A DNA stretch of 64,000 nucleotides from positions 21,420,715-21,484,714 of the forward strand of contig NC_069136.1 of NCBI RefSeq assembly GCF_026914265.1. The letters run 5' to 3'. Below the pieces are notes generated by a model. The model saw only the letters and a program-made list of their open reading frames with translations. It searched no databases and was not told the origin of the DNA. The DNA comes from Mya arenaria (Eukaryota > Mollusca > Bivalvia > Myida > Myidae). The position numbers were made by a program, and so were the translations under genes. Of the stretch, positions 1 through 58,789 are shown one piece after another (within the stretch, counting starts at the first letter, position 1; each line of letters begins with the position of its first letter).

Positions 1-908
1 ACAGGGTCATCATTGACCTCGTGCCAAACAATAGGTTCTTCGTTATCATTGTGCCTTTACACAGGGTCATCGTTAACCTTGTACTTCACAACAGGGTCAT
101 CGTTAACCTTGAGCCTCTCAACAGGGTCTGCGTTAACCTTATTCCTCACAACAGGGTCATCTTTAACCTTGTGCCTCTCAACATGATCTGCGTTAAACTT
201 GTGCCTCTCAACAGGTTCATCGTTAACCTTGTGCCTCTCAACAGGGTCTTCGTTAACCTTGTACCTCAAAAACAGGGTCATCGTTAACCTTGTGCCTCTC
301 AACAGGGTATTCGTTAACCTTGTACCTCTCAACAGGGTCTTCGTTAACCTTGGACCTCAAAATCAGGGTCATCGTTAACCTTGTGCCTCTCAACAGGGTC
401 TTCGTTAACCTTATGCCTCTCAAAGGGTCTTCGTTAACCTTGTACCTCAACAACAGAGTCATCGTTAACCTTGTGCCTATCAACAGGGTATTCGTTAACC
501 TTGTACCTCACAACGGGGTCATCGTTAACCTTGTACATCACATCAGGGTCATCGTTAACCTTGTGCCTCTCAACAGGGTCTTAGTTAACATTGTGCCTCA
601 CAACAGGGTCTTTGTTAACCCTGTGCCTCTCAACAGGGTATTCGTTAACCTTGTGCCTCACAACACGGTCTTTGTTAACCTTGTCCCTCTCAACAGGGTC
701 TTTGTTAACCTTGTGCCTCTCAACAGGGTCATCTTTAACCTTGTGTCTCTCAACAGGGTCATCGTTCACCTTGTATCTCTCAACAGGGTATTCGTTAACA
801 TTTTGCCTCACAACAGGCTCTTTGTTAAACTTGTGCCTTCAAACGGGGCATGATTTAACCTTGTGCCTCACGACAGGGTCATTGTTTACCTTGTGCCTCT
901 CAAAAGCG
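1..908. repeat. 30-bp minisatellite array (left copy), in the last intron of CLCA copy A
   Basis: About 30 head-to-tail copies of a 30-bp unit close to CAACAGGGTCATCGTTAACC plus TTGTGCCTCT. The array runs off the left edge. Its right end abuts exon 16 of CLCA copy A. Because 30 is a multiple of 3, long open frames run through it on both strands (decapeptides such as VERHKVNDDP); they look like by-products of the unit length rather than genes. The array matches 32175-33045 almost base for base, so it belongs to the duplicated segment. In copy B the equivalent array lies between exon 16 and a matching-phase terminal exon, so this one is inferred to be intronic. Confidence 0.95.
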
Positions 909-3900
909 TGTTCGTAAGCAAAAATACTTGTAAAAATGTGTGCACAAACCTTCCTTTCGTGGATCTCGGGTGGAGTGTGGGTTATTTAGTTTATGCCTTC
1001 TTAGATTTATAACGACGCATGCTGCAATGAGGATGATAACCGGCACTGCTGTTCCGATCACAACACCAATAATTAAACCCACGATGGTTTTATCATCATC
1101 TATGATAGGCGGAGGAGCAATGTACGTATGATTTGTTCTTCCGTTGAAGGAAATGTTAAATCCTGTGAAAGGAAAAAAGGCGATTGTCTAAAACTATTGC
1201 GCTTTGGAAACATTTATGTCATCTGATGCCAGGTTTGGTCAGTTTCTATAACTTCCTTACGTACATAAATTACGACATAATTGTACTTTATCTTACCGTC
1301 ATACTTACCATTTGCTATTACTATTGACACAATATTAGACATAGGTCCCTCATTTCCAACCTCATCCAAAGCTCTAATGCCCAAAAAGGCTGTCTCGTTA
1401 AATTCTTTTTCAGCTGTTATAGAAATATCGACAGTCTCGTCTTCGCCTGAGTCTCTAGGGTAAAGGTTTTGTTGACCAATGTCCAGAGCTTGCGCATTTC
1501 CAAAATTATTTAACAAACTGTCTAAGTCGTTTGCATAGCGGAATTGATAAGTTGTTGCTGAAATAAAAAGGTAACTAATTATCCAACTTCATTGTGATTT
1601 TAATACTCGTTTTACACTTTCATTAATTAAAAGAAATTATGTTAAGTAGAAATGATTTAAATTAACCTCAAATAAAGTATTCAGTGGCAACACTTATTCA
1701 TGTGTTATGTCAATGAGAGCCTATAAATGCGTTCATGTTACCACTTGGAATACGAGGGGAAAAGGCCATGGTGCGTATTGTTACAGCATTATAGTATAAT
1801 TGAACATGTTAATATTACCTGCTGTTGTAACTAGGGTAAATAAGGTGAGCATGCCAAATATCATACCATTAACAAACATACCGTGTAGGTATTGGGTACA
1901 CTAGTTTTGTCATGATCTAATGCATGTATTGCAGTTTCTGTGTCTGATTTTCTATCCTAAATGCTATGCACGATTCACACAAAATAAAATTTTGTTTAAC
2001 TAAGTATTTTAACAACAAAATGATCAAGATTGGTCGTTCTTAACGTGGGCGTTTTGATTATCTTACAAAAATATACAAGCATGGTACCTTGGCCAGTGTA
2101 TCTGTCGTCACCTGTTGCTGTCCAGCGTATTGTAAAATGTCGGGTGTTTCCATTCGTTTCCACATCTTCTATTCTGAGATCAGTAATCTTTCCCGGGGAA
2201 GTAGTATCCCCTATTGTTGTTGGAGATAAATTGGCATCCTCAACAAGTGAAAACCTTTCAAACCTTTCCTCAATAACGATTTCTTCAAACGCGTCTGAAT
2301 AATAAGTTTCACTGGTTGAAACATAATCATAGTACGTTTAATTTACAATTGGATAACATGAATACAACACAATTTCGGATAGCGTCGGAACTGAAAAATC
2401 TATTAAAGGAGGCCTATTCATGTTGAGATTAAAGGGCATAACTGTCCGCATAGCAATACTTTTTGAACGTAAAAGACTCACACTACAATTCAACATATGA
2501 CATTTTACGATTGGAACACAAAGTACAACCAAGTCAATGTGCCGTTTGTATAACCTGTTTATAAGTGAGTTGAGTAATTACCTGGGTTTAACGTTGCGGC
2601 TCCGACAATGCCAGTCACAATAATGATTGAATTTGCCTTCACAGTGACGCGGGTTTCACTCCGGCCTTCTTTGGGACATGTAAACTGTCCTGTATAAGTT
2701 CCGTCGCCTGCTGTAATGTCTTTACCTAAATAAGTTAGAAGCTATATCATTTGTGGTTCAAATGAACCATTAGGACGAATAAAAGATTCTTCACAATAAT
2801 AAACCACTTAAGCATGTGCTACAGGCAGTGGTCATAAGTCATTAGTCTCTTACTATTGCTATCAGATGCATTTATTGTTTCAACGTTAAAGAATTTATTC
2901 ATAGGACCTGGCGCCATTTAAGGACATTGTTGAAGTCGTATTTTGTACATTTTAAACAGGTAAAATGCTTAGAATTGTAACCTTTTCCATTGTCCCGTAA
3001 AATTACAAAACATGATCCAGACGTGGCGACGACGTTTGCATTCAAAACAGGAGCATTCCCCTTCAATACGTCCGTATAAACCACGTCGTCGGAGAAACGG
3101 GTCGTTACGGTAACTTGATGGTTATCCTTTGATTTAGATTTCACATCGTACTCCCAATTTATAGCTGTATCAGGCTTGGTTTTAACAACAACAAAATATG
3201 TCCCTTTCTGAAAATATATGGTAAAGACACATAACGACGGCTCTTGGGATGAATTAACAATATTATTTCGTTGAAACTATGTGTAACTTTAATGCAGACT
3301 TTCGCCTCGTCCTGTTCCTTAACGTTTCGTCATGGAACTTAGTCTTAACCTTATTTCTTTTCAAAATATTGTAAACATGTACGTATCATTAGTAGCAAAA
3401 CCTCTGAAGTTAAGCGAAAGCCTAGAAATTAATGCCGTTACTTAAGCTATCAGAAATTCAAACAATAAAAACAGTTGACATGCATCACATTTGGTATTGT
3501 AAATACTTATGAAATAGTCCTCACCTGAAACAAGAACAACGATAATATTACTTTGTATGGAAAAAAAGTCAATAAACGCATTATAGAAAGTTGAACTTAC
3601 TGTTAATTTTCCAGTCAACCGTGCCATAATCGGTGTCTCACTTATATTTAAACTTTTCTCAAGTAAGCCCTCCTCTCCTCTTATTTCAAAGTCAAAGTGT
3701 AGGCCAGGGTTGCTTGGAAATATGACAACTGTTGTGTTTAAACCCATCCCACCATCGATAGTGAAATTAAAATTCAACACGCTGCTATTCCTTAACGTCC
3801 CTGATCTCATCTACAAGACACAATGATTTTAAACCTAAAACAAACCATTGCAGCACGAGTCCGTACCCCTTGCAATGTATGCGTCACATTGTAGAATTTG

Positions 3901-5928
3901 TCATAATTTATATGTATATAACATTGATGTTTAAATCTTAAATTGTAAATAAGTGTTAAGTGCTTCATTCCTTTCGTATAAACAGAAAACGAGCGTTTAG
4001 ATCATTTTTTCAACAATATAAGTGTTGCTCAAAATGGCTTTAGGTACGGGTGCGTGTACATGTGGACTAACTTTATTTTACTGCGATAACCATGTCTGCA
4101 TGCAATACACATTTTTAGAATGACTCATACAAAGACAAGAGGAAATTTGTTTATGGTAGTATCAAAAAAGCGTCAATAAACTGTATCACCTTCACCCTAC
4201 CACAAAGGATACCACTTTAACAATGGACAATTACTAAAAGAATACAGCACCCAGAGTGCTAGTTCTAATGCATTGCACTTCTCCTAATGAAATCTTTCTG
4301 ATATGTAAATGCAGTTTGAGGTAAACTCCTCAACGATTTCACGTTATGCTCCGGACAAAAATAAATAACTATGAACATAAACAAAGATCATTTTAAAAAC
4401 TGCATTCAGAATGATGGTTCCTGTGCACTGCACTTCTATCTGTATATAAAATTTGAATTAATACCTTAAGGGCATTTTAAGATCTGCCCCGAACAAAAAT
4501 AGGTATGAAAATTAATAAAGGTAATAACTAAAAACATGCTGCACCATAAAAACTTAAACTTTTCAAGTTACGCTCTAGACAAAAATTCTCGGAATCCACA
4601 GGCACTTTCCCACACACATACACACCCCTACATCACTATTCCCTTTCGAAGGTGGCAACTATACATAGGCGAAAGAGAAGTTAGGTATCCAAGAATGAGA
4701 GAGCGAGCAGAAGCAGGATTTCGTCATTCGCATATACTAGAATACTAGTATGTGGTTTTCGCAACTTCTCTATTTACCAATTTTTAACAGATATCATACC
4801 TCCTCCGATTTACATAAGCCCCCGATCATACTGTTCGACAATGCTTTGGATAAGACAGAAACAAACGTAATATTTCCTCCAATCTCCAGAAAAAGACTTT
4901 TCCCGCCAGTAATTTTCGCAACGTCGGCGAGTCGTACAGAAGACTGGTTTGAGATAGCAACTGTGTGTATGAGTATACCAAGATCTTTCGCTCTGTTTGC
5001 TTGCTCTGTTATTGTTAAATTGTTCGTCGTCTCTTCGCCATCAGACATAAGAATAATCTCAGAATGTTTTGAGGACGTGGGAAAGGTCTTTATGATTTCC
5101 TGAAGAAAAACTATGGGTAAGTGATGGTCTGTAATGTTGTGTTTATATTAGCACCTTAACTAACTTAAGGTTGTCACATTAGTTTTCTTTACACTTAACA
5201 TTACTTCCTTCTTTTCAGTATAGAACCTCCATCTTATAATTGTATAACCAATAATAGGAAAACCCTTTTTTACCTCAAGCACTTTTTCAATTCTTAAAAG
5301 AAACCATATATATATTGCTTATGTAATTCATCACGTCCTTGGTCTCTTTCTGACAAACTTATTTCATAATTATACATATAATAATAATGTTCTGATAAAA
5401 TATTTCTTTTAGAACCTCTATTTTCATATAAAAGCAAGAATGCTTTTAATAATTTAACAGACAAATCAACATTGAGAGAATGAACTCTTACATCTATAGC
5501 AAGCTTCAGTCCACATCCGATACATGTCCCGCCAGCGGGAATCGTTGGAAGAGCATCTACTAGAGCAGCCCTCGTGGCTTCACTGTCGACCTTAGTCATA
5601 GCTGTAGAATAATGGCGGTATTTGTTTTTAATATTTTCAGCAATCAATTCAATTTTAAATAGTATGTGTTTATTCCTAGTGGGAATAAGAGTAGGCAGTA
5701 GGCAATTCAAATTGTGCTTTTATGTGTTCAGCTCTTTGATATTGAACGTTTTGACAACTTATTTATTTTTTTGGTCTTGGAACGAGCAGTTTTTTTGCGT
5801 AATTATCTGCAAACCAGTGATAAAAGACTGATGACGAAAGATCAGATCGCAGATGTTTTCTCTCCAAAAATGATATTTTCTTCATTTTTCTTAAACTGTT
5901 AGTAACGGTTTAAGCCATAAAACATTAA

Positions 5929-5941
5929 AGGTACTATGCAG
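5929..5941 (+). repeat. Left terminal inverted repeat of the Kolobok element
   Basis: AGGTACTATGCAG directly follows the TTAA target duplication. It is identical to the inverted sequence at 15695-15707; similarity stops after 13 bp. Confidence 0.92.
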
Positions 5942-6144
5942 CCTTATTTTAAACTTTTCGGTATAGGTTCTATTCGGCATCATATTTTGATTGGTAATTT
6001 TCTTACGAAAATTTACGATCATTTTACCTGTTTCCGGACGGTATATTACGCTACATTTCATACCTGTACGGAAAATGACGGAAATATTTCCGGAAAAGTG
6101 CGAAGTCGATGATCAGACTGTGACGTCACAGTCGTGAATCCAAA
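5942..6144 (+). promoter_or_regulatory. Left subterminal region: probable promoter of the ballast-domain gene
   Basis: Just inside the left end are ACGAAAATTTACGA (6005-6018, a near-palindrome), several CGGAAAA/TTCCGG-like motifs, and a perfect CRE-type palindrome TGACGTCA (6121-6128) only 17 bases before the ATG. The near-palindrome and the CRE recur at the other end of the element next to the transposase start. Shared motifs at both ends could serve as promoter elements, transposase-binding sites, or both; this is inference. Confidence 0.5.
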
Positions 6145-7302
6145 ATGTCTGACAGCGAGAATTACACAACTGACGGAGATGAATCGATTGATTTTTCGGA
6201 TACTAGCTCGTATGACGCTGAAAATAACATTGTTCCATATCAGTTTGAACCATTAAATAGGGATGATTTAATTGAAGACGACATTAATCGTCTAGATCTT
6301 CACGACGGAGATGATGGAAATCGAATTGGCAACACGAACTGGTAACCTAAAGTTACTAAACTTAATTTGAACTTCTTTATCTATGCGGAATCGATACCCA
6401 AAAATGTTAAAATGCAAATTCAATTTGAATACAAGTTTGGTTTTAAGTCATTCAGTGTCACTGTTTTTATATTTTGTAATTCATGTGACAATTAAGAATG
6501 TCGTGTAATTCAACATTTGTCAAAACTGAAATGTCTGAAAATACATGAACGTGACTATCTGTACTATAATATTTTCATAACTATTGCTTGGTTTATAAAT
6601 TATTTTGTACATCAAATTTCTAATCTAGATTATCATTTATACTCCCATATCCAGCAAAAGAACTTGATTATAGTAATTTTGTAGTTTATTTGATGATTTA
6701 ATTGTTTTAGGTGCAGATGCAATAGCTGTATTGCTATGCATACAGAGCGGGAATCGGTATGCTGCCGTGATGTTGAACAAACAAACTTCAAACTGGATGT
6801 GTTCAATGAAGAAGGCCATGACATTGAATGTATAACAGACCACCCCGGGTTTGGCACTGTTTGCCTGGACCGCTATGTGCTAGAGACTGCATACTACCAG
6901 TACAGACAGCAGTATGGAGTGCCGCAACAGGAAGATAATGAGTAAGTCTTAGTTGTATAAAAGAAATAATCAATGCATGTGGTTCAAAGTTTATTTACAT
7001 TCTGTCAGTCACTAGAATGCTATCACATGATATTCTTAGAACTTCATTTTGTTTTAATATCATCAATATTATAACCGCATATAAAAATTAACCCCCTATA
7101 ATTGGGAGTTACTTGTATAATTTCACATTGGTTTGACATCTTATTTTGCAGGCAACAGAGATATGTGGCATATCGCCAGTTTGTCAGATGGTGTTGGGGA
7201 TATTTGGGAAGAGAGGTGCGTGTTGTACTTCCATCATGTGCAGTTCAAAGGATTAGGGCGCAGTTTCCATCACAGCAGTATGAGGGATTTCAGGACTCAT
7301 AG
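6145..7302 (+). CDS. P2X7 receptor cytoplasmic 'ballast' domain-like protein (transposon cargo)
   Basis: Three exons, 6145-6341, 6711-6941 and 7152-7302, with GT-AG junctions in matching phases (2, then 2) and one 579-nt frame: 192 residues. Residues 1-60 are acidic and low in complexity. Residues 66-192 match the pattern of the P2X7 C-terminal domain: WCxCxxC (66-72), CC (83-84), a central C117, then YRQFVRWCWGYLG (150-162) and VVLPSCAVQRIRAQFP (167-182), followed by QQYEGF. In human P2X7 these cysteines bind zinc and the domain binds guanine nucleotide. There is no P2X channel part: no membrane segment or extracellular domain. The exon 1/2 junction itself creates the conserved W66. A poly(A) signal AATAAA lies at 7418-7423. 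It is convergent with the transposase and inside the same terminal repeats, so it is probably mobilised with it. Function unknown. The domain call is from remembered motif order, not a search. Confidence 0.85.
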
Positions 7303-7679
7303 GCAGTCATGACAGATGTTTGCGACATATTGTTTGCTACTTATGTGTCAGATTTCAATTTTACTATTCCAATATTTTACCACAAGTGTTTTGTGTTTTT
7401 TGTGATGAATCAATTGAAATAAAATGTTTGACAGGTTGGATTACTTTTGCATTTGTTTGAACTACGAAAATGATTCCTTAGTGCAAGGCCATGCCAATAT
7501 TCAATATCCATCATATATGCATGAAGCATTTGTTCCATGTTGTCATGTTTTGGTCACTCCTTAGTTAAATGAGTAAAGCTTGTAATGACAACAATTAAAG
7601 GGTCTGTCTGACAAATTATTTACTAGTGGAAGTAATTTGAAGAAGAGCACTTTAACATATATCCTTCAAATAATTCAAA

Positions 7680-8390
7680 GTTGTTTGAGTCGCCCCAGCC
7701 CATGTGATAGGGACATAATGGCAACTACATTAAACTTTATCCATCGCAATGCAACAGTTTTAGCTGTAAAATCGACTGATCACTTTGTCTAATTTGACAT
7801 ATTGCCCACTATCCATAAACTGAGTTTCATGAACTAGCTTTGATACTTCTTGAATTATCACAGGAACATATTGGCTATATCTTTAATGTCAAGGGCAATA
7901 ACTCGCTCTGATGAAAAAATAAACTAACGTGCATAATCTTCATATTACTATCTATCCACATACCAAGTTTCATCAACTTAGCTAGAGAACTCTTTTAGTA
8001 TTCCAAGGACCGATAATTTTTCCATCAACAGCTATATTTTTATATTTCAAGTCAAGGGCCATAACTCGGCATACATTTACCTGAAGAAAAAAATAAACAA
8101 ATGTGTATTATCTACACACTGCCCTCTTTCCACATATGTTTCATTTAACTTGGCTTTGATTCTTTTTTTCCCTATCACAGGTTCAAATTGGCTATAGTTT
8201 TAAAATCAAGGGCCATAACTTTGTCTGACAAAAAAATTAAACTAACATGCATATTGCCTCTCCACTTACTAAGATCATTGACCTTTAATACTTTTTGAGT
8301 TATTGCCTGACTGAGATTTTTGTGGGCGGACTGAGGGTAAACCTTGAGCCCCGTCCGATGAAACAGGTAGGGGACTAAAAGAAAAATAAG
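7680..8390. repeat. Roughly 155-bp degenerate tandem repeat between the two transposon genes
   Basis: Three to four diverged units, each with CAAGGGCCATAACTC (7893, 8052, 8206), an A-rich stretch and AAGTTTCAT or similar. It ends near GTGGGCGGACTGAGGG. This style of repeat is common in bivalve DNA as far as I recall. No coding sequence seen. Confidence 0.7.
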
Positions 8391-8872
8391 ATGTGGTATG
8401 GGTTTAGGTTTGTAATTTATATTAAGGATGATTGTTATTTCAAACATTAAAAGCACCAAATGATATGTACAACAATTCTCTGGCATTGAATTAACAGAAA
8501 ACAAGGACTAGAATGGCAAACATGCACTTAACAAAGGAAAACAATCAATCTAAACTTTTGAAACCTGATCAAGAGGCTGGATAAGAAAAAAAAAGGTATT
8601 GCTAATATTACACAGATACTATAAAGTTATTTTTAAGTAACAATATTCAAAACTTTAGTGAAAGTATAATACAAAAAAAACATTCCACTGTCACAAAGAT
8701 TCATTAGATTATACATGCATATATACAGAAACAACCACCATTACAGGAAATGATATTCAATTAAGATACAGGTTATACATGTAGTGTTAAAAAAGGAAAA
8801 TGCCAAATTGTTGACAAATCTTGGGATATATTCAAACAGTCACAATCTATGTTTTTTCTTATTTCCCCTACA

Positions 8873-11800
8873 CTAATATTTCAACCTTTTGTTTTTTCCT
8901 AAACACCTTGTTACCTCAACCTTGGTTGGCTTTCTTTTCCCTGATGTGAGGGGAGGTGGGGCTGGGGTTGACAGTTTGTTTTTTTCACCACATATTTCTA
9001 TACACATGTCAAGAAGTTCCTTTACATAACCAAAGGTCATTTCATCATTCACAAACTTGACTGAAAAGTCATCCTTATATTTTGGAAATACTATCTTCAG
9101 GTTGAACTTTCCATTTTTTGATATTTTTTTACCTCTTTGCACATTTTCATTGAAATGTAGGGCCGCCAAGTATTGGCGACACATTTGTCCGTGGAAGGAA
9201 TATGCTGTCATTTTTGGTGCAAAGTGATTGATTACACTGTGAAATGATTCCAGTGTTGACGTTTGAAATCCTGTGGACAGCTTTTTGATGTCCTTGCACA
9301 GTCTCTTGTTTAGCAGAATGTCTTCCATTTTGGCAGCTGCCTTTGAGCCCTTTTTTAACCATTCTCGGGGTTCAAGGGGACCATGGGTGCACTGCTGGTA
9401 GAGGTCACCATGTCCAGTGTGAATGTCTTGAACATGGTTGACCACTGATGTCCACTTTGCTGCAATCATGGAGCCCTCCTCTCCCTGGGATGATGCGGCT
9501 GACCAATAAAGGTGATTGGTGATACTCTTCATCCACTTGCAGACTATGTTGCAGTCTTTTTCCTTGGACAGTGCAAGGAGCTTCTTTTTCACAGCTGAAA
9601 CATAGTAAGAGTATGTGAAATATGTACTAAATGAAACTTTTGGAAAGTATCATAAGCCAAATGTTGGGTTTAAGTTTTTTATCACATGTTGGTTTTGAAA
9701 TGATCACTAAAGAATAAAGTCTTCTTTATGAAATGAACAATGTTTTGAAATGAGATCCTTTGGTTCCCCATTGTGACTGTTTAAGCAAAATTTGGTTGAA
9801 ATTAACCACACTTTGTCTGATAATGAACAATAACAATTGCTCATCTTTAGCACTTGTCAGAAGTAGGTGGGCTTTCCAACATGCTATTATAGCATTCATG
9901 AGACTTATAGACTGACAATCTAGGTCAATCATTATGATTTAACCCTAGATACGGTAATACATGTATGTTTCCACAGCTGAACAAAATATGTGTTACCTTT
10001 TCCAATATGCCACACATCAAAGGAATGGACAGTCCCAGGTAAATTCTCTCTAATCCACTTTTGTATTTGCAGATGCCTGTCTGTAATGATTTCTGCAAGG
10101 GACAGGCCACATCTGCGTAAACTGTCAGTTGCTCTCTTAAGGCCCTCCAACTCCATATGGTAGCTTGACTTCACTTCATTGGACTGAAAAAGATAGCAGA
10201 AATAATTAATTATCATGTTGCTAAATCACCGTGGTATCAATATTCATACAATGTAACTGTTAAACCAGTGAAGACATTTTTTACATAAACACCCTGGACT
10301 TTAATTCAATATATTCTCATGTAAACTAGGCAAAAAGGTAATAAGTTGTATGTTTATTTACCATCATCTTATTTGAGAAACTAGGACTAGTGCACCAGCC
10401 TTCACTATTATGTTATCAAGTTACAGAATGTTTTTGTTCTTGCCAAATCATATGCAATATTTTGTCAATCTTACTCAAGAATAATGAATACATCTCTTGA
10501 AAAGTCAACAAAATTACTAGTTATTCTAAAATATCCCCAATTCTGTTTGACATCAACCTTTGGCATTCATGCATTGGTCTTACACACAACAGAAGGCATC
10601 GTATGATCAACTATTATGTCATGTTATATCTTGCTTCAGACCCAAAATACATGGCAATGTCCCCAAGCAGATAACTTCAAACATTTGGAGAGACACATGA
10701 TGCAATAATAACCACTCATTTGATAGCCAATGTTGCTTGACTTAAAATGGCTGAATATCTTGAAAAGTTTATTAATATTAACAAACCTGCACAAGTTCAA
10801 TGGCTACTACTCTCCCGGTGTGCATATCAATCATGGAGTATACACCAAACTTTGCAGAGTGTCCCGGGCTGTCAGAACGTCCATCTCCAGCAACCACAAG
10901 CTCTTCTTCGCGGTCTAGAAGGACACTTATCAGTTGGTCATTACACTTTGTCCACACTCTCTCAATTGCTGGCCACAATACAGTTCTTTGATGACTAAAG
11001 AAAGTTGAAAGACTAATACTTAATACATTAATAAAATCAAAAATTCGCAGCACTTTCGAAGGTGAACATCCTGAGAACAAAATGCCAGCACTAAGAAGAA
11101 TGTTCCCAGCAGGAACACCTCTAACTTTGGGCTGTGACTCCCATCGCCTGGTGTGTCCACATTCACAAACTTGTTTGATGGCCATAGCTGATCCCTGGAC
11201 ATTGCAGACTTTGCCTTTGGTAGGGAGATGGCACATTTCACATCTGTTGAACAGTTCTAAAAGATTGTCTTCAAAAACAAGAAACTTCCTCTGCTTATGT
11301 ACATCTGCCCTGAAAAAGATGAATGTTCTTATGTCAATTAATCTTCAGTTCTGACAGCATACATTATGCTTTTATAAATTGTCAATTGCAGACAAATGAG
11401 GAATCAAGAAATGCTAAAAAATTGAATGCACCAGTGATTAAGGAAGTAATTTGAATCAATTCAAGTAGCACTATGTGGATAATTTACAACATATTTGACT
11501 ACTCACATTGGCTTAATATTTTGGTGGGAATGATATAGCATAATGATAAAGATGCGCTTTAATACTGAAGTTATATATGACAAAGACTTAACAGGTTTAT
11601 TTATGAAGGCATAACTTACTGCCTTGGGTTATCATCTTCTGAGTCACTGTACACTGAGGCTTCTGTTTCATAGTCCGGATCTATGGCTTCATCATCAGTA
11701 TATCCCCAGGATGATGTGGACATGAAGGATTTGTTGAGTGTTGATTCAACAACAACCCTGCCCTTCTTCCGTGCAGGAGTTGAGGCGAGGACTGGGGCTG

Positions 11801-14800
11801 GTAATGGAAAAGCCAGAAGGTGTGGAGCAGGAGGGACCTCAGAACAGGCAGGTGTCAGGCTCTTTTCATCAGCAATGTCACTGTCACAGTACTGGGTACT
11901 TGAGGTGGAGTATGTGATGTGGTGTTCCATCACAGTCTCTGTCCCTGAATTGAAGAATAGATAAATGTGTAAATATATATATGTTGAGTCCAATTGCTTT
12001 ATTCATAATTGCATAATATGCCATCACTAAAGTGAAATTTGATCTGGAAAACCTAACAAATTCTTACAAAATAATGTCAGGTAAGAAGAAATTATACTTG
12101 TGGAACACAACCAGCTTTTGATCCCAAATTAGAAATAAAAGCTTGATCAATGTAACAAACCTTTCTGCACTTTGAAATGAAACTTTTAAGCAGTCAGATT
12201 TTCAACCTCCAGCAATTTGACAGCTGCATAATATGGATTTTATTACACAAGTAGAATTACCTTTAGTTTTTCGCTTAATTGGCGGTGGCCTGCGATTCAC
12301 TTGGGTACCCCGGACAGCAGTTGTTACACAACACTTTGGACATGCACATGAGGCCTGAAAAATACAAGACATGTTAAAAATTGTAGACTGTCTTAGTCAG
12401 ATAGTTTTTGTAGCTTATCTGGAATAATATGCATTATTTGGACTTTATCTTCTATAATTGTAACATAGCATGGCTTCATGTCAGCTGTGCTTCTGGTAAT
12501 TTCAAGTTTTAAAAGGGCAGGGTGCTGCGGAAAAGGCACATGGCACTAAAATCTTGGTTAGAATGGCACCTTCTAACTACTATGAAAACCTTAATTATAT
12601 TTTTTTAGAAATATGGCTAAATTGCTTAAAATACAAGATCAAGACATTTGTTTGTATTTGAAATCATATAACAAGTTTTAAATGCAAGCGAAACATATGT
12701 ATAGGAAATATTTTATTATCTGTTAGCTTTCAACAATTACAAAAAGACATCGTAGTTCACAAGCTGGTCTTCATGAAAGTGTAGGGGTGCTACTAAAACA
12801 TATATATTGTGTAACACCCTCCATATAAACTCATAAGCTAAAACCGAAAGAAAATGATAACAATAATCAAATTATTCATTACCTTCTTATTGCTGGTATT
12901 CATTGATCTCATCTCTGTATGTTTGAGTTTACCCATGTTCCTTTTCAGGGAATCATCACAAGATTTCTGAAATAATACATAGTAATGCCAACAGTCACAA
13001 TAAATGTTCACATGAACATATATGAATACCTTTAATATGTACAACTTACAAATAAAGGTGTTTACTTCTTTAAAAAGTAATTGCCAAAGCTGCTTTACTA
13101 TACACTGGAACATAACATAACAATGAGGACATTCTCTTTAATGGAGATATACACAGTATGATGAAATAGCAAAAAAAAGAAGAAAACTTGTTGAACACTG
13201 ACTTAGACATGGTATCAATGTGTACAATGCATCACATAGTTCATTCTTATGCATGATTGATTAGCCAATGTTATCACGTGATATTACCAAATTCAGTATA
13301 TAGCTCAGATATTCAATTGTTCATGGTAAGCCTTGGTAGCACAGTGGATATGACACTGGACTGCAATTTTGGCCACACCAGTCCGAAACCAGTCTCTACC
13401 TCGATTTTTTATTTGCATTATGGTCCATTTTTTTTTACAGTTGTGTTATCTAAGGGTAAAACATTGTACCAAATTATTGACTTTGTGCTAAGATTCTTTA
13501 CCAATCTGGTGTATAGTCCCTTTACAATCAGCATCTCGAATTGATAATAATTAGGTTTGTTTTTATTGGTGTCTTTGTTTCAAATCAACGATTTTCTATA
13601 TGTACCTTTGACTGGATCTTAGCATCAGTACTGTGAGTTTCTAGGTCTTGTTGAAGGTTAAGGGCTGAGGCTACTGTTGAAGACTGGTCAACGGGAGGTG
13701 GTATTTCAGCGCTCTACATAAAAAACATTGATAGTTGAAAATGATATCAAAATATTTATTGCACACTAAATACAGTCATCGAAATAAGGCTTTTGGATGC
13801 ACAAGCCCGAATTCACATATCACTGCTTGGCATTACATCTTTGAACAAGCTCTGCTGTATAAAACTCAGACTTTGAGCAAGCCCAGAAAGCATTTTAACA
13901 GTGCAGGCCTTGCTGGCTTGTGCTAATTTCGACCACTGTAAATATCAGTAATTGACCCTATAATCCTTCCTTTTTAAAGACAAGTGCCTTTAAATGATCA
14001 TCACATAAGTGTTTGAATAAATATTACCTGCATGACAGTTCTTTTACTGTTGTCCAACTCCATGTCCATGTCTAATTCAACTGCGTCAACTGGAAACTCA
14101 GTGGATGGAGGGTTGGCGGTCATGTCACCCTAATGAAAGGAACAAAGTGCCCATTAGTATTGATAATATATACTCAATACAAATAGTTTTTAAGGAAACA
14201 ATTACACACATGTACACTTCATTTCCATAAATGAAACTGCAATTTGATTTCATGGTGGGTGTATATGATTTAAGAGGGAAAAATCCCAAACAACTCTAGA
14301 AAATCCATTGAAATTTTAAACATCCTACAAATGAATACTAATATAAATACATACTAGATTAACAGGAGATAAATCTGGAACAGCATCTGTATACGTTACA
14401 GCAGTTGATTTATCAACTTGGCCTTTCTGGTTGTAGTCACTCAGTATCTGAAGGGGAAGCGATTTTTTATAGGTATATATATACAATAACCCTTTACTCA
14501 AACTTGAGATGTTAAAAGTCAAAACATTTATAAAGCATCTTCAAGGTTCTTTCACTAATACTTCTATACCATAAGTTTTTTTTATATATCCGCAATATAA
14601 TCCAGTAAATGAAAGACAAATTATGAACCATACTTGCAACTTTACAACTATTTTAATCTTATAATATGCCTAAAAACATGAGCAAAATAAACACAATGCG
14701 TTCATCATCCTTTATTTACAGAGCCTCTGGAAGATACAGATTAAATCAAACGGTAGCAGTATAACCCGTTTTCATATCGTACAGTCAGATCTTGCTTTTT

Positions 14801-15411
14801 CATGAATGTATGTCTATTCATGATTCATTTATATAAAAAAAAATATTACAAATAAGTCCTGACATACATGTTTTGCACATACATTCAGTATGCACTAATT
14901 TGTATACATTTTAAAAAGAGTGTTCTGCTCAGGTCTATTTACAAATACTAACCATCCAAGTTGAAGGGCTAAATTGAAATGTTGACTGATTAAGTCAAAT
15001 AAACCTGTTAACATATTAAAATGTGCAACATACCCTCCTCACTTCTCGTTTGCGCACTACCGGTCTTGCTTGGACTTGGTCAAGGTTGCTTTTCCTAACT
15101 TTGTCGCCAAATAATGTGGGGATAGCTTCGTCTATTAAAGCAGTTCTATAGGCTAGACCGAGACTCCATTTAGTTCTGGTAGTCATCGTGAACATTGTCA
15201 ACTCAAAATGCTCAGAACACACAAGCTGTGCATTTGCGGAACCGTTTTTCGAGGGACCTTGCCATCCGGCCCTTGAACACTCAGACCCAGTCATCTGAAT
15301 TGAACGAATCCATTGTTTCCGGAGTTTCTCTTCTTTGGGAAATGTGTGCAGACTAATTCCATTTCCTGGCACATTGCTACATCCCCCAACACAACACCGA
15401 GACCGTCCCAT
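8873..15411 (-). CDS. Kolobok transposase with N-terminal THAP domain
   Basis: Ten exons: 15411-15034, 14447-14355, 14129-14028, 13713-13606, 12966-12883, 12354-12261, 11944-11620, 11309-10787, 10183-9997, 9594-8873. All junctions are GT-AG and all phases agree, giving 871 residues without a break. The THAP zinc finger (residues 1-101) has C7, C11, C65 and H68, W34 and the closing AIPTLF box. Residues 126-395 are a low-complexity linker with CACPKCC (258-264). The catalytic part has a zinc-ribbon-like CEMC (418-421) and CEC (443-445), IPAGN-like VPAGNILLSAGILFSG, GDGRSDSPGHSAK (536-548), TDRH (603-606), FDVWHIGK (624-631), NHLYW and TLESFHS (E747). By analogy D537, D604 and E747 may be the acidic triad; this is inference. 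The protein should bind the element ends and move it by cut-and-paste. The start is about 300 bases from the right end. Confidence 0.9.
13245..13535 (+). mobile_element. tRNA-derived SINE in a transposase intron
   Basis: Contains a tRNA-like stretch (TTGGTAGCACAGTGGATATG as A-box region, then ACCAGTCCGAAACC as a decayed B box) followed by T-rich sequence. The same family, with the same upstream segment (TTATCACGTGATATTACC), occurs at 52411-52735. It lies between transposase exons 4 and 5 and does not touch the splice sites. Confidence 0.7.
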
Positions 15412-15694
15412 TGTTTACACTAATTAATATTCCACACTTAAACTAACATCCGTGTCGTTCTTTTCAATGTAAATAAACAATATGGCGGAGACGAGTAACG
15501 ACTCTGACGTCACGACGAAAATTTACGAATGAGAAACCGGACTTTCCCGATGATGGACAATATCGGAAAAGTACAATATGCGAATATGATTAGTCGGCTA
15601 CTACATCGTAAATATTCGCAAAAGTTCGGAATTTTCAGTTCAGACGTTATAAATAGACATATCTTAAGCCAAATCAACGGTGTTGACATAGTCA
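15412..15694 (-). promoter_or_regulatory. Right subterminal region: probable transposase promoter
   Basis: Upstream of the THAP start codon lie TGACGTCA (15505-15512) and ACGAAAATTTACGA (15515-15528), the same two motifs found beside the cargo gene at the left end, in the same plus-strand orientation. Further toward the end are CGTAAATATTCGC and similar AT-rich palindromic motifs. No TATA box is certain. Confidence 0.5.
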
Positions 15695-15707
15695 CTGCAT
15701 AGTACCT
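15695..15707 (-). repeat. Right terminal inverted repeat of the Kolobok element
   Basis: CTGCATAGTACCT, the exact inverse of the left end, followed by TTAA at 15708-15711. Confidence 0.92.
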
Positions 15708-16555
15708 TTAAATTTTGAATGGAAATATGAAAATCTGCGATATGATCTTTTGTCAACAGTCTTTCATCACCGGTCAAAAGAATTGTAGTGCAAAACAGTT
15801 CAAAGGTTGGGAAACTTGATATAATGATCCAATCTGCGGAATATCTCGTTACAAAAAGTGTTCACGTTGATCATCATATAAAAAATAAGGGTGATTCATT
15901 ATGATCAGATTGCGTGAAATCGTACATGTTCAAAACCATAACAACGAAACAGAAAACATGCACTTCACCTTTCTTGACTAATGCGCTTTCATTAAACCAC
16001 ACGATTCCGAGGTAGCTATCGGCACAAATCTCCTCTTCATTCTCGAGTATGTATTTTCCAGTTTCATGCAAGCGTACTATCCTCATTGGTGTGTCCTGTA
16101 TCAAAAGATATACCCATTTTTGGCAGTGGCCACATACAGCGCGAGTCTCAAATCGACTGCCATTTAGTGATTTATTCTTATTAGTTAGTCAGTTGTTAGA
16201 AAATGTAGTGCTACTAAAAAGTGGCATACACCTTTTAAACTGTTCTATCCCGTCAGGCGGGACAGAGGACACACCCTGGGGATATTGATAAAAATATATT
16301 ATGTTATCTTTAACCTGCTCCTGGTGTAGAGCGATTTGCCAAAATCACTGGTATGGGAAATGTTTGGTGTATATAAATCTTAACAGGTTAAACCAGCTAG
16401 ATATGTTGCTCTGACTGCGGTCTGACCTGGTCCGTCAAAAATTCAAAACCCCAATGTTATAATCTACCCCTCTTTCTAACGTCCCCTCTGTACCCATATA
16501 CTCGTGCAAAAAAATAAATATGTTTTACAACAGGAATTTAATAAAGACCTCATAC

Positions 16556-29319: not shown

Positions 29320-32300
29320 CTGAAAACAGTACATGTAACATAACAAAACGAACTTTCAATTAAGCATAGCGCCACGATTCTAATCAATATATCGATGTAT
29401 AACTATTCAATTTAGCATTTTTGCAGAACAAAATATTCCAATTCACACAATATTACTTAGTACAATTTAATTGCAAGAAAGTTGATATACACGACATTCA
29501 ATTAAACGTCGGTATTCATTAGCAACAAAGTGCTTTAATATAAATATTAATCTCAAGAGGGTCTGGATTAACCTTGTGCATATCAACAGGGTCATCGTTT
29601 ACCTTGTGCCTCTCAACAGGGCCTTTGGTTACCTTGTGCCTGTCAACAGTACTTTGTTATCCTTGTGTCCCTCAACCGGGTTTTCGTTAATCTTGTGATT
29701 TATAACAGTGTCTTGGTTAACCTTGTATCTCTCAACAGGGTCTTTGTTAACCTTGTGTCTCTCAACCGGGATTATATTAACCTTGTGCCTCACAATAGGG
29801 TCTTTGTTAACCTTGTGCATCTCGACAGGGCCTTTTAAGATCGTGCATCGCAAAAAGGGTCTTTGTTAGCATTGTGCCTCTCAACCGGGATTTTATTAAC
29901 CTTTTGCCTCACAACAGGGTCTTTGTTAACAGTATACATCTCAACAGGTCTTTGTTAACAGTGTACATCTCAACTGGGTCTTGGTTAACATTTTGCCTCA
30001 CAGAGTCTTTGTAAAACTTGTGCCTCACAACAAGGTCATCGTTAAAGTGCATCACGACAGGGTCTTTGTTAACATCTTAATTCATCTCAACACGGTCTTT
30101 TTAACATTGTGCCTCTCTCAACAGGATTAACATTGCGTCAACAAGAGTCTTGTTAACATTGTGCCTCCTTTGTTAACATTGTGCATCTCAACAAGGTCTT
30201 TGTTAACCTTGTGCCTCACAACAGGACTTTGTTAACCTTGTGCTTCACAACAGGTTCTTTGTTAACAAAGTGCATCACAACAGGGTCTTGTTAACGTCTT
30301 AATTAACATCTCACACGGTCTTTGTAACATTGTGCCTCACAACAGGGTCATCGTTTACCTTGCACCTCGTAACAGGATCTTTGTAACCTTGTGCGTCTCA
30401 AAGGTTTTAGTCACCTTGTGCCTCACAATAGGTCTTTGTTAACTTTGGGTCTCTCAAGTGTACTTTGTTTACCTTGTGCCTCACAACAAGGACTTTGTAA
30501 CCTTATCCTCACAACAGGTTCTTTGTAACCAAGTGCATCACAACACGGGTCTTTGTTAACGTCTTAATTAACATCTCAACACGGTCTTTTGTTAACATCG
30601 TGCCTCACAACATGGTCATCGTTTACCTTGTACCTCAAAACAGGGTCTGTATTACCATGTGCGTCTCAAAAGTGTTTAGTTAACCTTGTGCCTCACAATA
30701 AGGGTCTGTTTTACCTTGGACTCTCAACAGTACTTTGTGACCTTTTTCTCAACAATACTTTGTTAGATTTATGCATCACCAGGTTATCGTTTACCTTGTT
30801 CATCTTAACAGGTTATCGTTACCTTGTTCATCTTAACAGGTCATGGTTAACCTTATGCCGCTCAAAACGGTCTTCGTTAACGTTGTGCATCACACCGGGT
30901 CATCGTTTACCTTGTGCCTCACAGCAGGGTCATGGCTAACCTTGTTCATCTCAACAGGGTTTATAGTTTACCTTGTTCATCTTAACAAGGTCATGGTAAC
31001 CAAATGCTGTTAACAGGGTCTTCGTTAACCTTGTGCCTCACAACAGGGTCATCGTTTACCTTGTGCATCATAACAGGGTCATCGTTACCTTGTGCCTCAC
31101 AACAGGTTCATCGTTTACCTTGTGCCTCACAACAGGGTCATGGTTAACCTGTTCATCTCAACAGGGTTATCGATTACCTTGTTCATCTTTACAGGGTCTG
31201 TTTTAACCTTGTGTCTCTCAACTGGGTCTGTGTTAACCTTGAGCTTCTCATTAGTACTTGTTAACCTTGTTCATCTCAACAGGGTTATCGTTTACCTTGT
31301 TCATCTTAACAATGTCTGTTTTAACCTTGTGCTCTTAACTGGGTCTGTGTTAATCTTGGGCCTGTCAACAGGTCATCGTTAACCGTGTGCATCTCAACAG
31401 GGTCATCGTTAACCGTATGCATCTCAACAGGGTCTCGTTAACCTTGTGCCTCTTAACGGGTCATCGTTACCGTGTGCCTCTAACAAGGGTCATCGTTAAC
31501 AGTGTGCCTCTCAACAGGGTCATCGTTAACCGTGTGTCTCTCAATAGAACTTTGTTAACCTTGTGCATCTCAACAGAGTCATCGTTATCTAGTACCTCTC
31601 AACAGGGTCTGTTTTTAACCTTGTGCCTCTCAAAGCGCTTGTTAACCTTGTGTCCTCTCTACAGTACTTTGTTAACCTTGTGGATCTCACCGGGTTATCG
31701 TTTACCTTGTATGTTTTAAAACCTTGTGCTTTTCGACAAGAGTCTTTTTTAATCTGTGCATCTCACAGGGTCTTCGTTAACCTTGTGCCTACAACAGGTG
31801 TCTTTGTTAACCTTGGGTTCTCAGTTTAATTTGTTACTTGTGCCTCTCAAGAGGGTCATATTTTACCTTGTGCCATTTTACAGGGTCTGTTTAACCTTGG
31901 AATTCTCAACAGGGTCTTATTTAACCTTGACACATTCAACAGGGTCTGCGTTAACCTTGTGCCCCTCAACAGGGTCTTCGTTAACCTTGAGCCCCTCAAA
32001 GGGTCTTCGTTAAACTTGTGCCTTACAACAGGGTCATGATTTACCTTGTACCTCACAACAGGGTCAACGTTAACCTTGTGTTTATCAACAGGTCTTCGTT
32101 AACCTTCTGCCGCTCAACAGGGTCTTCGTTATTGGTGACTCTCAACAGGGTCATCGTTAACATTGTTACTCTCAACAGGGTCATCATTGACCTCGTGCCC
32201 AACAGTAGGTCTTCGTTATCATTGTGCTTTACACAGGGTCATCGTTAACCTTGTACTTCAAACAGGGTCATCGTTAACCTTGAGCTCTCAACAGGGTCTA

Positions 32301-35300: not shown

Positions 35301-38300
35301 GGCTTGGTTTTAACAACAACAAAATATGTCCCTTTCTGAAAATATATGGTAAAGACACATAACGACGGCTCTTGGGATGAATTAACAATATTATTTCGTT
35401 GAAACTATGTGTAACTTTAATGCAGACTTTCGCCTCGTCCTGTTCCTTAACGTTTCGTCATGGAACTTAGTCTTAACCTTATTTCTTTTCAAAATATTGT
35501 AAACATGTACGTATCATTAGTAGCAAAACCTCTGAAGTTAAGCGAAAGCCTAGAAATTAATGCCGTTACTTAAGCTATCAGAAATTCAAACAATAAAAAC
35601 AGTTGACATGCATCACATTTGGTATTGTAAATACTTATGAAATAGTCCTCACCTGAAACAAGAACAACGATAATATTACTTTGTATGGAAAAAAGTCAAT
35701 AAACGCATTATAGAAAGTTGAACTTACTGTTAATTTTCCAGTCAACCGTGCCATAATCGGTGTCTCACTTATATTTAAACTTTTCTCAAGTAAGCCCTCC
35801 TCTCCTCTTATTTCAAAGTCAAAGTGTAGGCCAGGGTTGCTTGGAAATATGACAACTGTTGTGTTTAAACCCATCCCACCATCGATAGTGAAATTAAAAT
35901 TCAACACGCTGCTATTCCTTAACGTCCCTGATCTCATCTACAAGACACAATGATTTTAAACCTAAAACAAACCATTGCAGCACGAGTCCGTACCCCTTGC
36001 AATGTATGCGTCACATTGTAGAATTTGTCATAATTTATATGTATATAACATTGATGTTTAAATCTTAAATTGTAAATAAGTGTTAAGTGCTTCATTCCTT
36101 TCGTATAAACAGAAAACGAGCGTTTAGATCATTTTTTCAACAATATAAGTGTTGCTCCAAATGGCTTTAGGTACGGGTGCGTGTACATGTGGACTAACTT
36201 TATTTTACTGCGATAACCATGTCTGCATGCAATACACATTTTTAGAATGACTCATACAAAGACAAGAGGAAATTTGTTTATGGTAGTATCAAAAAAGCGT
36301 CAATAAACTGTATCACCTTCACCCTACCACAAAGGATACCACTTTAACAATGGACAATTACTAAAAGAATACAGCACCCAGAGTGCTAGTTCTAATGCAT
36401 TGCACTTCTCCTAATGAAATCTTTCTGATATGTATATGCAGTTTGAGGTAAACTCCTCAACGATTTCACGTTATGCTCCGGACAAAAATAAATAACTATG
36501 AACATAAACAAAGATCATTTTAAAAACTGCATTCAGAATGATGGTTCCTGTGCACTGCACTTCTATCTGTATATAAAATTTGAATTAATACCTTAAGGGC
36601 ATTTTAAGATCTGCCCCGAACAAAAATAGGTATGAAAATTAATAAAGGTAATAACTAAAAACATGCTGCACTTTTCAAGTTACGCTCTAGACAAAAATTC
36701 TCGGAATCCACAGGCACTTTCCCACACACATACACCCCTACATCACTATTCCCTTTCGAAGGTGGCAACTATACATAGGCGAAAGAGAAGTTAGGTATCC
36801 AAGTATGAAAGAGCGAGCAGAAGCAGGATTACGTCATTCGCATATACTAGAATACTAGTATGTGGTTTTCGCAACTTCTCTATTTACCAATTTTTAACAG
36901 ATATCATACCTCCTCCGATTTACATCCGCCCCCGGTCATACTGTTCGACAATGCTTTGGATAAGACAGAAACAAACGTAATATTTCCTCCAATCTCCAGA
37001 AAAAGACTTTTCCCGCCAGTAATTTTCGCGACGTCGGCGAGTCGTACAGAAGACTGGTTTGAGATAGCGACTGTGTGTATGAGTATACCAAGATCTTTCG
37101 CTCTTGTTGCTTGCTCTGTTATTGTTAAATTGTTCGTCGTCTCTTCGCCATCAGACATAAGAATAATCTCAGAATGTTTTGAGGACGTGGGAAAGGTCTT
37201 TATGATTTCCTGAAGAAAAACTATGGGTAATGATGGTCTGTAATGTTGTGTTTATATTAGCACCTTTACTAACTTAAGGTTGTCACATTAGTTTTTTTTA
37301 CACTTAACATTACTTCCTTCTTTTCAGTTTAGAACCTCCATCTTATAATTGTATAACCAATAATAGGAAAACCCTTTTTTACCTCAAGCACTTTTTCAAT
37401 TCTTAAAAGAAACCATATATAATATATGCTTATGTAATTCATTACGTCCTTGGTCTCTTTCTGACAAACTTATTTCATAATTATACATATAATAATAATG
37501 TCCTGATAAAATATTTCTTATAGAACCTCCATTTTCATATAAAAGCAAGAATGCTTTTAATAATTTAACAGACAAATCAACATTGAGAGAATTAACTCTT
37601 ACATCTATAGCAAGCTCCAGTCCACATCCGATACATGTCCCGCCAGCGGGAATCGTTGGAAGAGCATCTACTAGAGCAGCCCTCGTGGCTTCACTGTCGA
37701 CCTTAGTAATAGCTGTAGAATTATGGCGGTATTTGTTTTCATTTTTTTTAACAATCAATTCGATTTTATATAGTATGTGTTTATGCCTAGTGGAAATAAA
37801 AGTAGGCAGTAGGCAATGCAAATTGTGCTTTTATGTGTTCAGCTCTTTAATATTGAACGTTTTGACAACTTATTCATTTTTTGTCTGTTGTTCATATTTT
37901 CTCTCCAAAAATGATATTTCCTGCATTTTTCTTAAACTGTTAGTAACGGTTTAAGCCATAAAACATTAAATTTGGATGGAAATATGAAAATCTGCGATAT
38001 GATCTTTTGTCAACAGTCTTTCATCACTGGTCAAAAGAATTGTAGTGCAAAACAGTTCAAAGGTTGGGAAACTTGATATAATGATCCAATCTGCGGAATA
38101 TTCGTTACAAAAAGTATTCACGTTGATCATCATATGAAAAAATAAGGGTGATCCATTATGATCAGATTGCGTGAAATCGTACAATATGTTCAACACCATA
38201 ACAACGAAACAGAAAAGATGCACTTCACCTTTCTGGACAGATGCGGATGAACTAAACCACACGATTCCGAGGTAGCTATCGGCACAAATCTCGTCTTCAT

Positions 38301-53585: not shown

Positions 53586-54188
53586 TTATTCTTGTTCCAT
53601 GTCTTCGTCGTTTTCTAACTGAGGAATATCGTAAGTATCCAAGACTTTGTCAAAGAGGAATCTCCGCTTCAGAATGGCGTACTTTAAAGCTTCCTCCGGT
53701 TCATAGTTTTCTTCCGCTATGAGCTTATTCGCTGTATTTTTCACAGCTTTATACACCGGATCTTTTTTCATAACGGTGAACCAGCCTAGTTTGCTACCAA
53801 AAACGTTCATCATAGCTTTTCGAAAAGTGTTTTTCATGTCTTCAAAGACATGTTCCTTAGCTTCACGCTCACTCATATTTGCATCCTCCTCCATTAGTCC
53901 ATTTACATCAGCCTCGTATTGTGACTGACACTTATCAAACGCTTCCTCAACAATGTCTTGCCAGGGATCAATATCGACAGAGTCCTCAGAGGCAACAGAT
54001 ACGTCATCGTCTTCGTCGTCGCTGCTATCGGAAACGGTTTCGGGGACAGGCCCAAAAATATCCTCTTGAACACTAGTATCCGACATCGCGTCTTCTTCAG
54101 AGTCCACGTCGGAATGAGCAGACTTTTTGTGTCGTAACATATTATCTTGCCTTCCAAAATACTTTAAACAAATATCGCACTGGTGCAT
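53586..54188 (-). CDS. C2H2 zinc-finger protein with acidic middle region, unidentified
   Basis: A 200-residue intronless ORF, starting from the first ATG in frame. One C2H2 finger lies at the N-terminus (C4, C7, H20, H25; C-x2-C-x12-H-x4-H). It is followed by an acidic Ser/Asp/Glu stretch (about 30-75) and an alpha-helical, charged C-terminal half with the WFTVMKKDPVYKAVK segment. The poly(A) signal AATAAA overlaps the stop codon. A second ORF lies 46 bases upstream on the same strand. GC is higher than in the surroundings. Compact, intronless spacing suggests a mobile or virus-derived cassette (a Polinton-like source is one guess) or a retrocopy. I do not recognise a named family. Confidence 0.6.
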   Translation of the reverse strand: MHQCDICLKYFGRQDNMLRHKKSAHSDVDSEEDAMSDTSVQEDIFGPVPETVSDSSDDEDDDVSVASEDSVDIDPWQDIVEEAFDKCQSQYEADVNGLMEEDANMSEREAKEHVFEDMKNTFRKAMMNVFGSKLGWFTVMKKDPVYKAVKNTANKLIAEENYEPEEALKYAILKRRFLFDKVLDTYDIPQLENDEDMEQE

Positions 54189-54234
54189 TGTCCTCAACGT
54201 TTCGAACGATACTGAGGAGGAGTCGGGACAGCAT

Positions 54235-54636
54235 TCAGCTTAATATTTCTCCAATGGTCGTGTTGGACTCGAGCTTGCTGGAGTTCTGCCTGGGCTTTCC
54301 TTCCTTAGAGGACGCCTCTTTTCTAGATCGTTTGTTGTTCTTCTTACGAAGGCTTTCCGACTTGGCCCCGGGACTTTTGCGATTTCGTCTTTTACTGGCT
54401 TCCGCCATTCGATGTAACTCCAGATCTATCAATGTCCGGGTAGGCTTTGACTGACGTTCTAGCATACTCTTGGCGATAGCCGTCGTCTGCTCAGCTGGTA
54501 AAACCATTCTTATTACCATTTTGGAATAAGGCACCTGATTTGTTTTGCGAACACCCTTTTTAAACTTCCTATTCGCCGTCTTGTTATTTTTATCGAACAA
54601 ATCCATTTTTAAATACACGTCTTTACCTCTCGACAT
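54235..54636 (-). CDS. Small basic protein, unidentified
   Basis: A 133-residue intronless ORF beginning MSRGKDVYLKMDLFDKNN. The C-terminal half is very rich in Lys, Arg and Ser (nucleolar or nucleic-acid-binding composition). It precedes the zinc-finger ORF on the same strand with under 50 bases between, like a compact two-gene cassette. No domain recognised. The start was taken at the internal ATG, since the longer open frame has no upstream ATG. Confidence 0.5.
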   Translation of the reverse strand: MSRGKDVYLKMDLFDKNNKTANRKFKKGVRKTNQVPYSKMVIRMVLPAEQTTAIAKSMLERQSKPTRTLIDLELHRMAEASKRRNRKSPGAKSESLRKKNNKRSRKEASSKEGKPRQNSSKLESNTTIGEILS

Positions 54637-54901
54637 CCGCCAGCATTGTGTCACGAGATTTTAGTTTCCAGTCTAAAGTTTCAAATGATCAAAAAATGTT
54701 CTCCTATCTTTAAGCGTTTTATCGCAGCATACGCATTTATTAGAATAATACGCGCTAGTATGCCATATTCTTAAATGATGCAAAAGATTTCTCCAAAAGA
54801 AGAACACGTAGGCGCATATTGAAATATGCTATTTTCTTGCGCATTTCGTTCTATTTTTGCGGACGTTTTCTATCCCTCAAAAGTCCGTCTTATTGTTATG
54901 A

Positions 54902-58780: not shown

Positions 58781-58789
58781 AAGTATAAA

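Follow-up and report, generated by a model that had tools for sequence, protein, structure and literature searches.

The 64,000-nucleotide stretch of the Mya arenaria genome analysed here (hereafter the window; C15:21420715-21484714 in a 1.216-Gb assembly of 18 contigs) contains a DNA transposon that is probably an autonomous-looking Kolobok of the Kol0 lineage, with its P2X7-like gene being the KolX gene of that lineage. That the element is a Kolobok with a ballast-fold second gene is practically certain, and its membership in Kol0, as judged from KolX and from the motif pattern, is highly probable. Kojima and Bao (2022) reported that Kol0 Koloboks encode a transposase together with KolX, a protein similar to P2X7 residues 476-595 that adopts the cytoplasmic ballast fold, and they presented stand-alone ballast proteins as parts of Koloboks, which had previously not been pointed out (PMC9587614). 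The link between Kolobok and the P2X7 ballast, of which an earlier note on this DNA knew no report, is therefore already in print. The finding is a correct independent rediscovery, in which the family is apparently new and the principle is known; no description of the 9.8-kb family of M. arenaria was found in a narrow literature search, with Repbase outside its scope.

The element and its two genes

The transposon spans 9,779 bp (5929..15707), as delimited by its terminal inverted repeats, the TTAA duplications and an empty site, and it was inserted into one of the two tandem copies of a host region (copy A). The left terminal inverted repeat, AGGTACTATGCAG (13 bp, starting 5'-RR, 5929..5941, plus strand), has a perfect inverted copy at the right end, CTGCATAGTACCT (ending YY-3', 15695..15707, minus strand), and the TTAA target-site duplications lie at 5925..5928 and 15708..15711. 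The termini of the element read AG...CT, i.e., the 5'-RR ... YY-3' arrangement of the Kolobok superfamily. In copy B of the host duplication, the empty insertion site CATTAAATTTGG (37956..37985) has one TTAA, at 37966-37969. This confirmed what the earlier note had claimed on both counts, namely that perfect terminal repeats bound the element and that the empty site in copy B proves its ends. Copy B has a single TTAA and no insert, and its left flank matches that of copy A at 97.7% identity over 5.8 kb; the insertion therefore came after the host duplication, unless precise excision removed an element from copy B.

Around the element, 30-bp minisatellite arrays (window 1-915 and 29551-33032) adjoin both copies of the host duplication. 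An 86-bp tandem array of 22 copies occupies 58798-60671, with a strong strand asymmetry in 58001-60000 (GC skew 0.52), and minus-strand open frames are found in 53586-54660, one of them with a weak C2H2 finger match under the curated cut-off. The Rfam scan of the element gave no match at gathering thresholds. The stretch 13321-13440, inside a transposase intron, looks to us like the beginning of a SINE of tRNA origin, without a match there in ARAGORN or Rfam.

The KolX gene (6145-7302, plus strand) consists of three exons, with introns all GT..AG and a single open frame that codes for 192 aa before the stop. When the start and the stop were held constant, this splice model was the sole open solution among splice-site pairs in small ranges around the expected borders, in agreement with the three-exon gene with consistent phases and the 192-residue product described earlier. 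Exon 1 (6145..6341) encodes an acidic N-terminus, modelled at low confidence and probably disordered, with a conserved PYQFEP motif at residues 31-36; exon 2 (6711..6941) encodes the cysteine clusters WCxCxxC, CC, and CIT; exon 3 (7152..7302) encodes RYVAYRQFVRWCWG ... LPSC ... RIRxxFP and ends with the stop TAG. The product is 99% identical to the annotated protein P0001, "P2RX7-like protein [Mya arenaria]".

Several analyses connect this product to the P2X7 ballast. The Pfam profile PF20478 (P2RX7_C) matched it with E=1.8e-19 and 70.8 bits (cut-off 23.5), which gives the element the second protein characteristic of Kol0; it was the sole domain in the Pfam scan, in which no P2X channel domain was found. 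All four distinct PDB sequences returned by phmmer belong to P2X7 (best E 9.4e-6). For P0001, AlphaFold2 gave a model with a mean pLDDT of 78 and blocks from 61 to 190 at 80-97, whose Foldseek search against the PDB gave 14 matches with E<=1e-3, every one P2X7. Furthermore, all seven zinc-ligand cysteines are present in the window protein (C67, C69, C72, C83, C84, C106, and C172), and each of these positions holds a cysteine in at least 27 of the 28 homologues picked by hand from 81 matches. Judged from sequence and structure models, we consider the relation to the P2X7 ballast real, and the P2X7 C-terminal pattern without a channel that had been noticed earlier is borne out by the profile and fold searches.

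The likeness to the P2X7 C-terminal ballast (PF20478; the ZCD of Rump 2020, PMC7016195), the zinc-binding tail of that vertebrate immune channel, consists of the seven zinc cysteines, the C-terminal motif and the fold; the differences are that the window KolX lacks the channel domain, has an N-terminal PYxFEP tail and keeps two of five GDP contacts. The rat P2X7 ballast binds GDP, with R546, H547, R574, R578, and K583 listed as contacts (Rump 2020, PMC7016195). The window protein retains the equivalents of R546 and R578 and has Y, V, and S in place of H547, R574, and K583, with V at the R574 position in 23 of the 28 aligned sequences. According to Rump (2020), the same two contact residues are kept beyond deuterostomes, and the five are not all kept outside mammals, even within P2X7 (PMC7016195). 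Thus, the missing contacts do not exclude a ballast domain.

The transposase gene (8873..15411, minus strand) is convergent with KolX within the element. Its splice model, the longest of 16 open solutions, has 10 exons (15411-15034, 14447-14355, 14129-14028, 13713-13606, 12966-12883, 12354-12261, 11944-11620, 11309-10787, 10183-9997, and 9594-8873) and encodes 871 aa, with a THAP domain (PF05485, E=1.3e-14) in the first exon and the RNase-H/DDE core in the last exons. The annotated M. arenaria protein P0082 is of equal length and 100% identical over residues 390-871. In the structure model of the transposase, residues 135-394 are of low confidence and the core (~400-860) mostly has pLDDT >90; the Foldseek search with P0082 gave four PDB matches with E<=1e-3, i.e., ISCth4 (three chains) and Hermes, with the P element at 1.3e-3.

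Among 32 aligned transposases, our own selection from 120 listed, D537, D604, D625, and H628 are invariant and E747 is present in at least 90%. In our reading of the triad, this pattern would correspond to a DDD/E core with C/DxxH between the second D and E. Between C/DxxH and E, residues H685, H690, C700, and H702 are also invariant in the 32 proteins, as read from this alignment by itself; a zinc finger in this interval, with an extremely conserved third C, is a Kol0 trait (PMC9587614). A CCHC finger after the first D is reported for KolobokP, KolobokE, KolobokD, and Kolobok5 (PMC9587614); the window transposase has one cysteine in the D537-D604 interval, hence no such finger there.

Overall, the family shares with the published Kol0 elements carrying KolX the TTAA duplications, the RR..YY ends, the DDD/E transposase and the ballast-fold second protein (PMC9587614), and its own traits are the bivalve host, the length of 9.8 kb and the tail-to-tail arrangement of a 10-exon transposase and a 3-exon KolX. 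KolobokP, KolobokE, KolobokD, and KolobokH belong to the same superfamily and also have lineage-specific accessory proteins, but these are nucleases or a helicase, unlike KolX, and a protein related to KolX occurs in a few piggyBac families (PMC9587614).

Copies and gene pairs in the Mya arenaria genome

The genome contains 115 KolX matches, which collapse into 63 loci, and 20 genome stretches around such matches were taken for comparison. Seventeen of them are copies of the window family (L009-L025), one is a partial copy at ~92% (L028) and two are diverged, at 74-87% (L026 and L027). The whole 9.78-kb element is found at 98.7-99.6% identity in five more copies (L009, L012, L015, L017, and L021); L025 lacks ~264 bp at the left end, and the remaining copies of the window family are internally deleted or truncated. 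Among the matches listed, TTAA was present on both sides in all eight sequences having both terminal inverted repeats as a simple unit (the window, L009, L012, L015, L017, L018, L019, and L021; 17 other loci were scanned, with L023/L024 left out), and these represent seven sites because L018 and L019 have common flanks. These two (C12, 17.14 Mb and 19.11 Mb) show the same insertion, flanks and internal deletion 2 Mb apart, and are a segmental or assembly duplication.

Two further arrangements were observed. L013 and L014 (C3:86152293-86168447) lie head to tail with the same internal deletion and 3 bp between their ends, one A short of the spacing that TTAA insertion would give; they form a tandem dimer, perhaps derived from a circle or from local duplication. 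Directly beside the full copy L021, C5:33295480-33300098 holds a partial second set of transposase exons.

The KolX frame is intact in 14 of the 17 other window-family copies, counting L018 and L019 apart, and is damaged in L010 and L025, which are cut short, and in L023, which is shifted. The presence of the ballast gene inside other transposon copies thus speaks against the one-off event that the earlier note had named as a way in which its reading could fail. In three older copies, fewer differences were found in exons than in introns (6/579 versus 20/572, 9/579 versus 18/572, and 15/577 versus 29/570), and in younger copies the numbers are about equal (0-4 exon versus 1-3 intron differences). 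The synonymous/nonsynonymous codon changes amount to 3/3 in L022 and 2/7 in L024, at 115 versus 461 sites, and such counts within the window family appear too small to show selection. We read the mostly intact frames, the lower exon than intron divergence of the older copies and the seven cysteines conserved across animals as the mark of a KolX gene that is maintained.

The pairing of the two genes was then considered over the whole genome, where 52 of 341 candidates from the transposase search were scored. A scored transposase match lies within 10 kb of at least 23 of the 63 KolX loci. In all 23 the two genes are arranged tail-to-tail, 1.5-3.7 kb apart, in two families (16 pairs in the window family and seven in a second one, family B). 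For comparison, 27 transposase places with 10 kb on either side make up ~0.05% of the genome. The check proposed in the earlier note, for a Kolobok transposase within about 10 kb of each P2RX7_C gene, was positive for these loci and found no scored match at the other 40, which include the truncated L010 and L011 and many weak short matches. Conversely, no KolX match was found within 10 kb of the transposase matches at C8 64.56 Mb (two rows) and C15 9.24 Mb. At C8:64553576-64565170, where no KolX match lies within 10 kb, the transposase pieces are inverted, with the look of an inverted dimer.

In family B, the transposase is ~28% and the KolX ~39% identical to those of the window family. Its transposase (L029:2964-4835, 623 aa) has no THAP domain in that frame; on C17, a THAP-like stretch was observed close to the copies of this family, beyond the sequence that they have in common with C11. 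The left end, TTAA-AGGAGTTGTAGAG, is common to two copies with different flanks, and on the right side one copy ends CAG|TTAA without an inverted repeat and two other sequences continue past that point.

The gene pair can also be traced in annotated M. arenaria models. In P0086 and P0087, the transposase runs into the antisense of KolX exon 1, and in P0027 KolX runs into an antisense transposase exon; P0086 is apparently on C15, the window's own contig, and P0087 and P0027 are apparently on C6 and C13. KolX is an accessory gene of a lineage and not stray cargo. The word "cargo" in the earlier note does not fit a regular second protein of Kol0 (PMC9587614) that is convergent with the transposase in 23 of 23 pairs from two families.

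KolX and Kolobok transposases in other animals

The profile search identified 364 proteins and, among the 120 listed, every one with a named organism came from an animal; short KolX-type proteins were listed from sponges, cnidarians, molluscs, nemerteans, arthropods, and amphioxus. Coherently, Rump (2020) described stand-alone ballast proteins from sponges to fish and a ballast domain confined to animals (PMC7016195). No relatives were found on viral contigs with one peptide pattern, for which 33 stretches matched, and in a viral fold library there was no match with E<=1e-3.

Comparing 55 of 81 KolX matches with 54 of 120 transposase matches, 17 species were found in both sets, and in four of them a KolX and a transposase lie on a contig of equal length, taken as a shared one: Mya, Ylistrum (3.3 Mb), Diadema (605 kb), and Branchiostoma lanceolatum (18.7 Mb). 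Further same-contig cases were found by eye with the profile search in Pecten (202 kb and 33.9 Mb), Argopecten (44.3 Mb), and Montipora capricornis (50.2 Mb). In a set of nine pairs, of which two come from Mya elements and seven are joined by a shared contig, the distances between KolX proteins correlate with those between transposases (Mantel r=0.63, p=0.0075). A shared contig is no proof of a shared element, and host relatedness may be part of this correlation. The unrelated cargo and transposase trees that the earlier note had set down as evidence against its reading were accordingly not what the distances gave.

The N-terminal PYxFEP motif is present in 40 of the 50 KolX models of >=160 aa. 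Of the ten others, two tick models read HFRFDP and eight are odd, truncated or skip that part. With caution, PYxFEP may be called near-invariant, in a tail that is acidic and modelled at low confidence, and it is an addition of the present work; the accessible parts of Kojima and Bao (2022) and Rump (2020) hold no discussion of it. The motif is also carried by zebrafish nanor b (P0266, PYQFEP), a short ballast protein like KolX but a host gene; Kojima and Bao (2022) regarded nanor as a domesticated KolX (PMC9587614).

THAP and P2RX7_C occur together in two protein models, one from an oyster (P0206) and one from a fish (P0231). The N-terminal part of P0206 shares 40% identity, over 179 columns, with a Kolobok transposase of the same oyster species (P0107), and the relation of the P0231 THAP to Kolobok THAPs is distant (best 32% identity, E 3e-9). 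A tick protein with THAP and ballast, printed "TAHP", appears in Rump (2020; PMC7016195). These fusion models may be annotation artefacts; if real, they suggest that KolX acts together with a THAP-bearing transposase.

Two other types of composite models were observed. In P0051, P0052, and P0231 (Chanodichthys, Pimephales, and Leuciscus), a KolX-type domain stands behind repeated KEESE-type segments, one model also having THAP, and these proteins look like a host gene family built from KolX. In P0074 (Apostichopus japonicus), a ballast fragment is joined to a sialyltransferase domain in one gene model; this is probably a fragment of a transposon that was annotated as part of a host gene.

Role of KolX and origin of the P2X7 ballast

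In THAP-bearing DDE transposases, the THAP domain binds the transposon ends and the DDE core cuts and joins, here at TTAA. KolX could be a co-factor of this transposition, made of a zinc-stabilised ballast fold and an acidic N-terminal tail, whose PYxFEP motif would dock onto the transposase or some other partner at the ends of the transposon. We propose this role, with the docking, tentatively; it is the simplest one for KolX, and a host-directed role is also possible. P2X7 and zebrafish nanor would be host genes reusing the KolX module, as Kojima and Bao propose, with P2X7 originating by fusion of a P2X4-like gene with KolX (PMC9587614). The same origin was anticipated by the earlier note, in which a Kolobok with a ballast domain offers a vehicle for the gain made by P2X7.

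Two other histories of the gene were considered. A single insertion could have taken up a host ballast-domain gene as a passenger; the introns of the gene and its resemblance to annotated "P2X purinoceptor 7-like" genes speak for this. Nevertheless, it is carried by the five other full-length copies, the same layout recurs in family B at the divergence given above, and KolX and transposase share contigs in other species. Within the Mya genome, this one-off capture was rejected on the full-length copies, the second family and the gene-pair layout, and we give it virtually no credence. A transfer in the reverse direction, by which Koloboks took the domain from a vertebrate-type P2X7 gene, is very improbable: we found no point in its favour, short KolX-type proteins extend from sponges to amphioxus, and typical P2X7 is known from bony fish and tetrapods and, in the accessible text of Rump (2020), was not found in agnathans and cartilaginous fish (PMC7016195). 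An accessory gene that belongs to the Kolobok lineage is the history that we retain.

Regarding function, two readings compete with a co-factor at the transposon ends. The P element transposase uses GTP, and KolX might likewise supply a guanine-nucleotide cofactor to its transposase. The P element transposase is among the weaker structural matches of the Mya transposase, and the rat ballast binds GDP (PMC7016195), but the loss of three of five GDP contacts (to Y, V, and S) weakens this proposal, which we hold to be improbable. KolX could otherwise be a host-facing regulator or an antagonist of silencing (e.g., of chromatin or small-RNA defence), outside the transposition machinery. Its acidic, low-confidence tail is of the kind found in disordered regulators, a role in transcription was proposed for nanor (cited in PMC7016195), and the binding of the transposase by KolX has no direct evidence; on the other side, the regular pairing with the transposase and the THAP-KolX fusion models agree better, if not exclusively, with a role at the transposon ends. 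We regard the host-facing role as rather unlikely.

The co-factor reading can be carried further, to KolX as an obligate subunit of the Kol0 transposition complex. The ballast fold and the PYxFEP tail would join the THAP-bearing transposase, some lineages would have fused both (THAP-KolX), and the P2X7 ballast would have been repurposed from transposition. Rump (2020) described ballast genes linked with two markers from sponge to sea urchin and interpreted this as ancestral synteny (PMC7016195); our guess is that a transposon carrying both genes would yield such a linkage without conserved host gene order. This extended proposal, in which the "ancestral synteny" is a transposon gene pair, is in our view unlikely.

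With the window family, a single animal offers a multi-copy Kol0-type family of nearly uniform members that shows directly how the two genes are laid out, how far KolX is intact and what the empty site looks like. A transposition assay could therefore test what KolX does and, with it, what the P2X7 ballast originally did. Furthermore, the results suggest that many invertebrate and fish genes annotated as "P2X purinoceptor 7-like" are transposon genes or their descendants.
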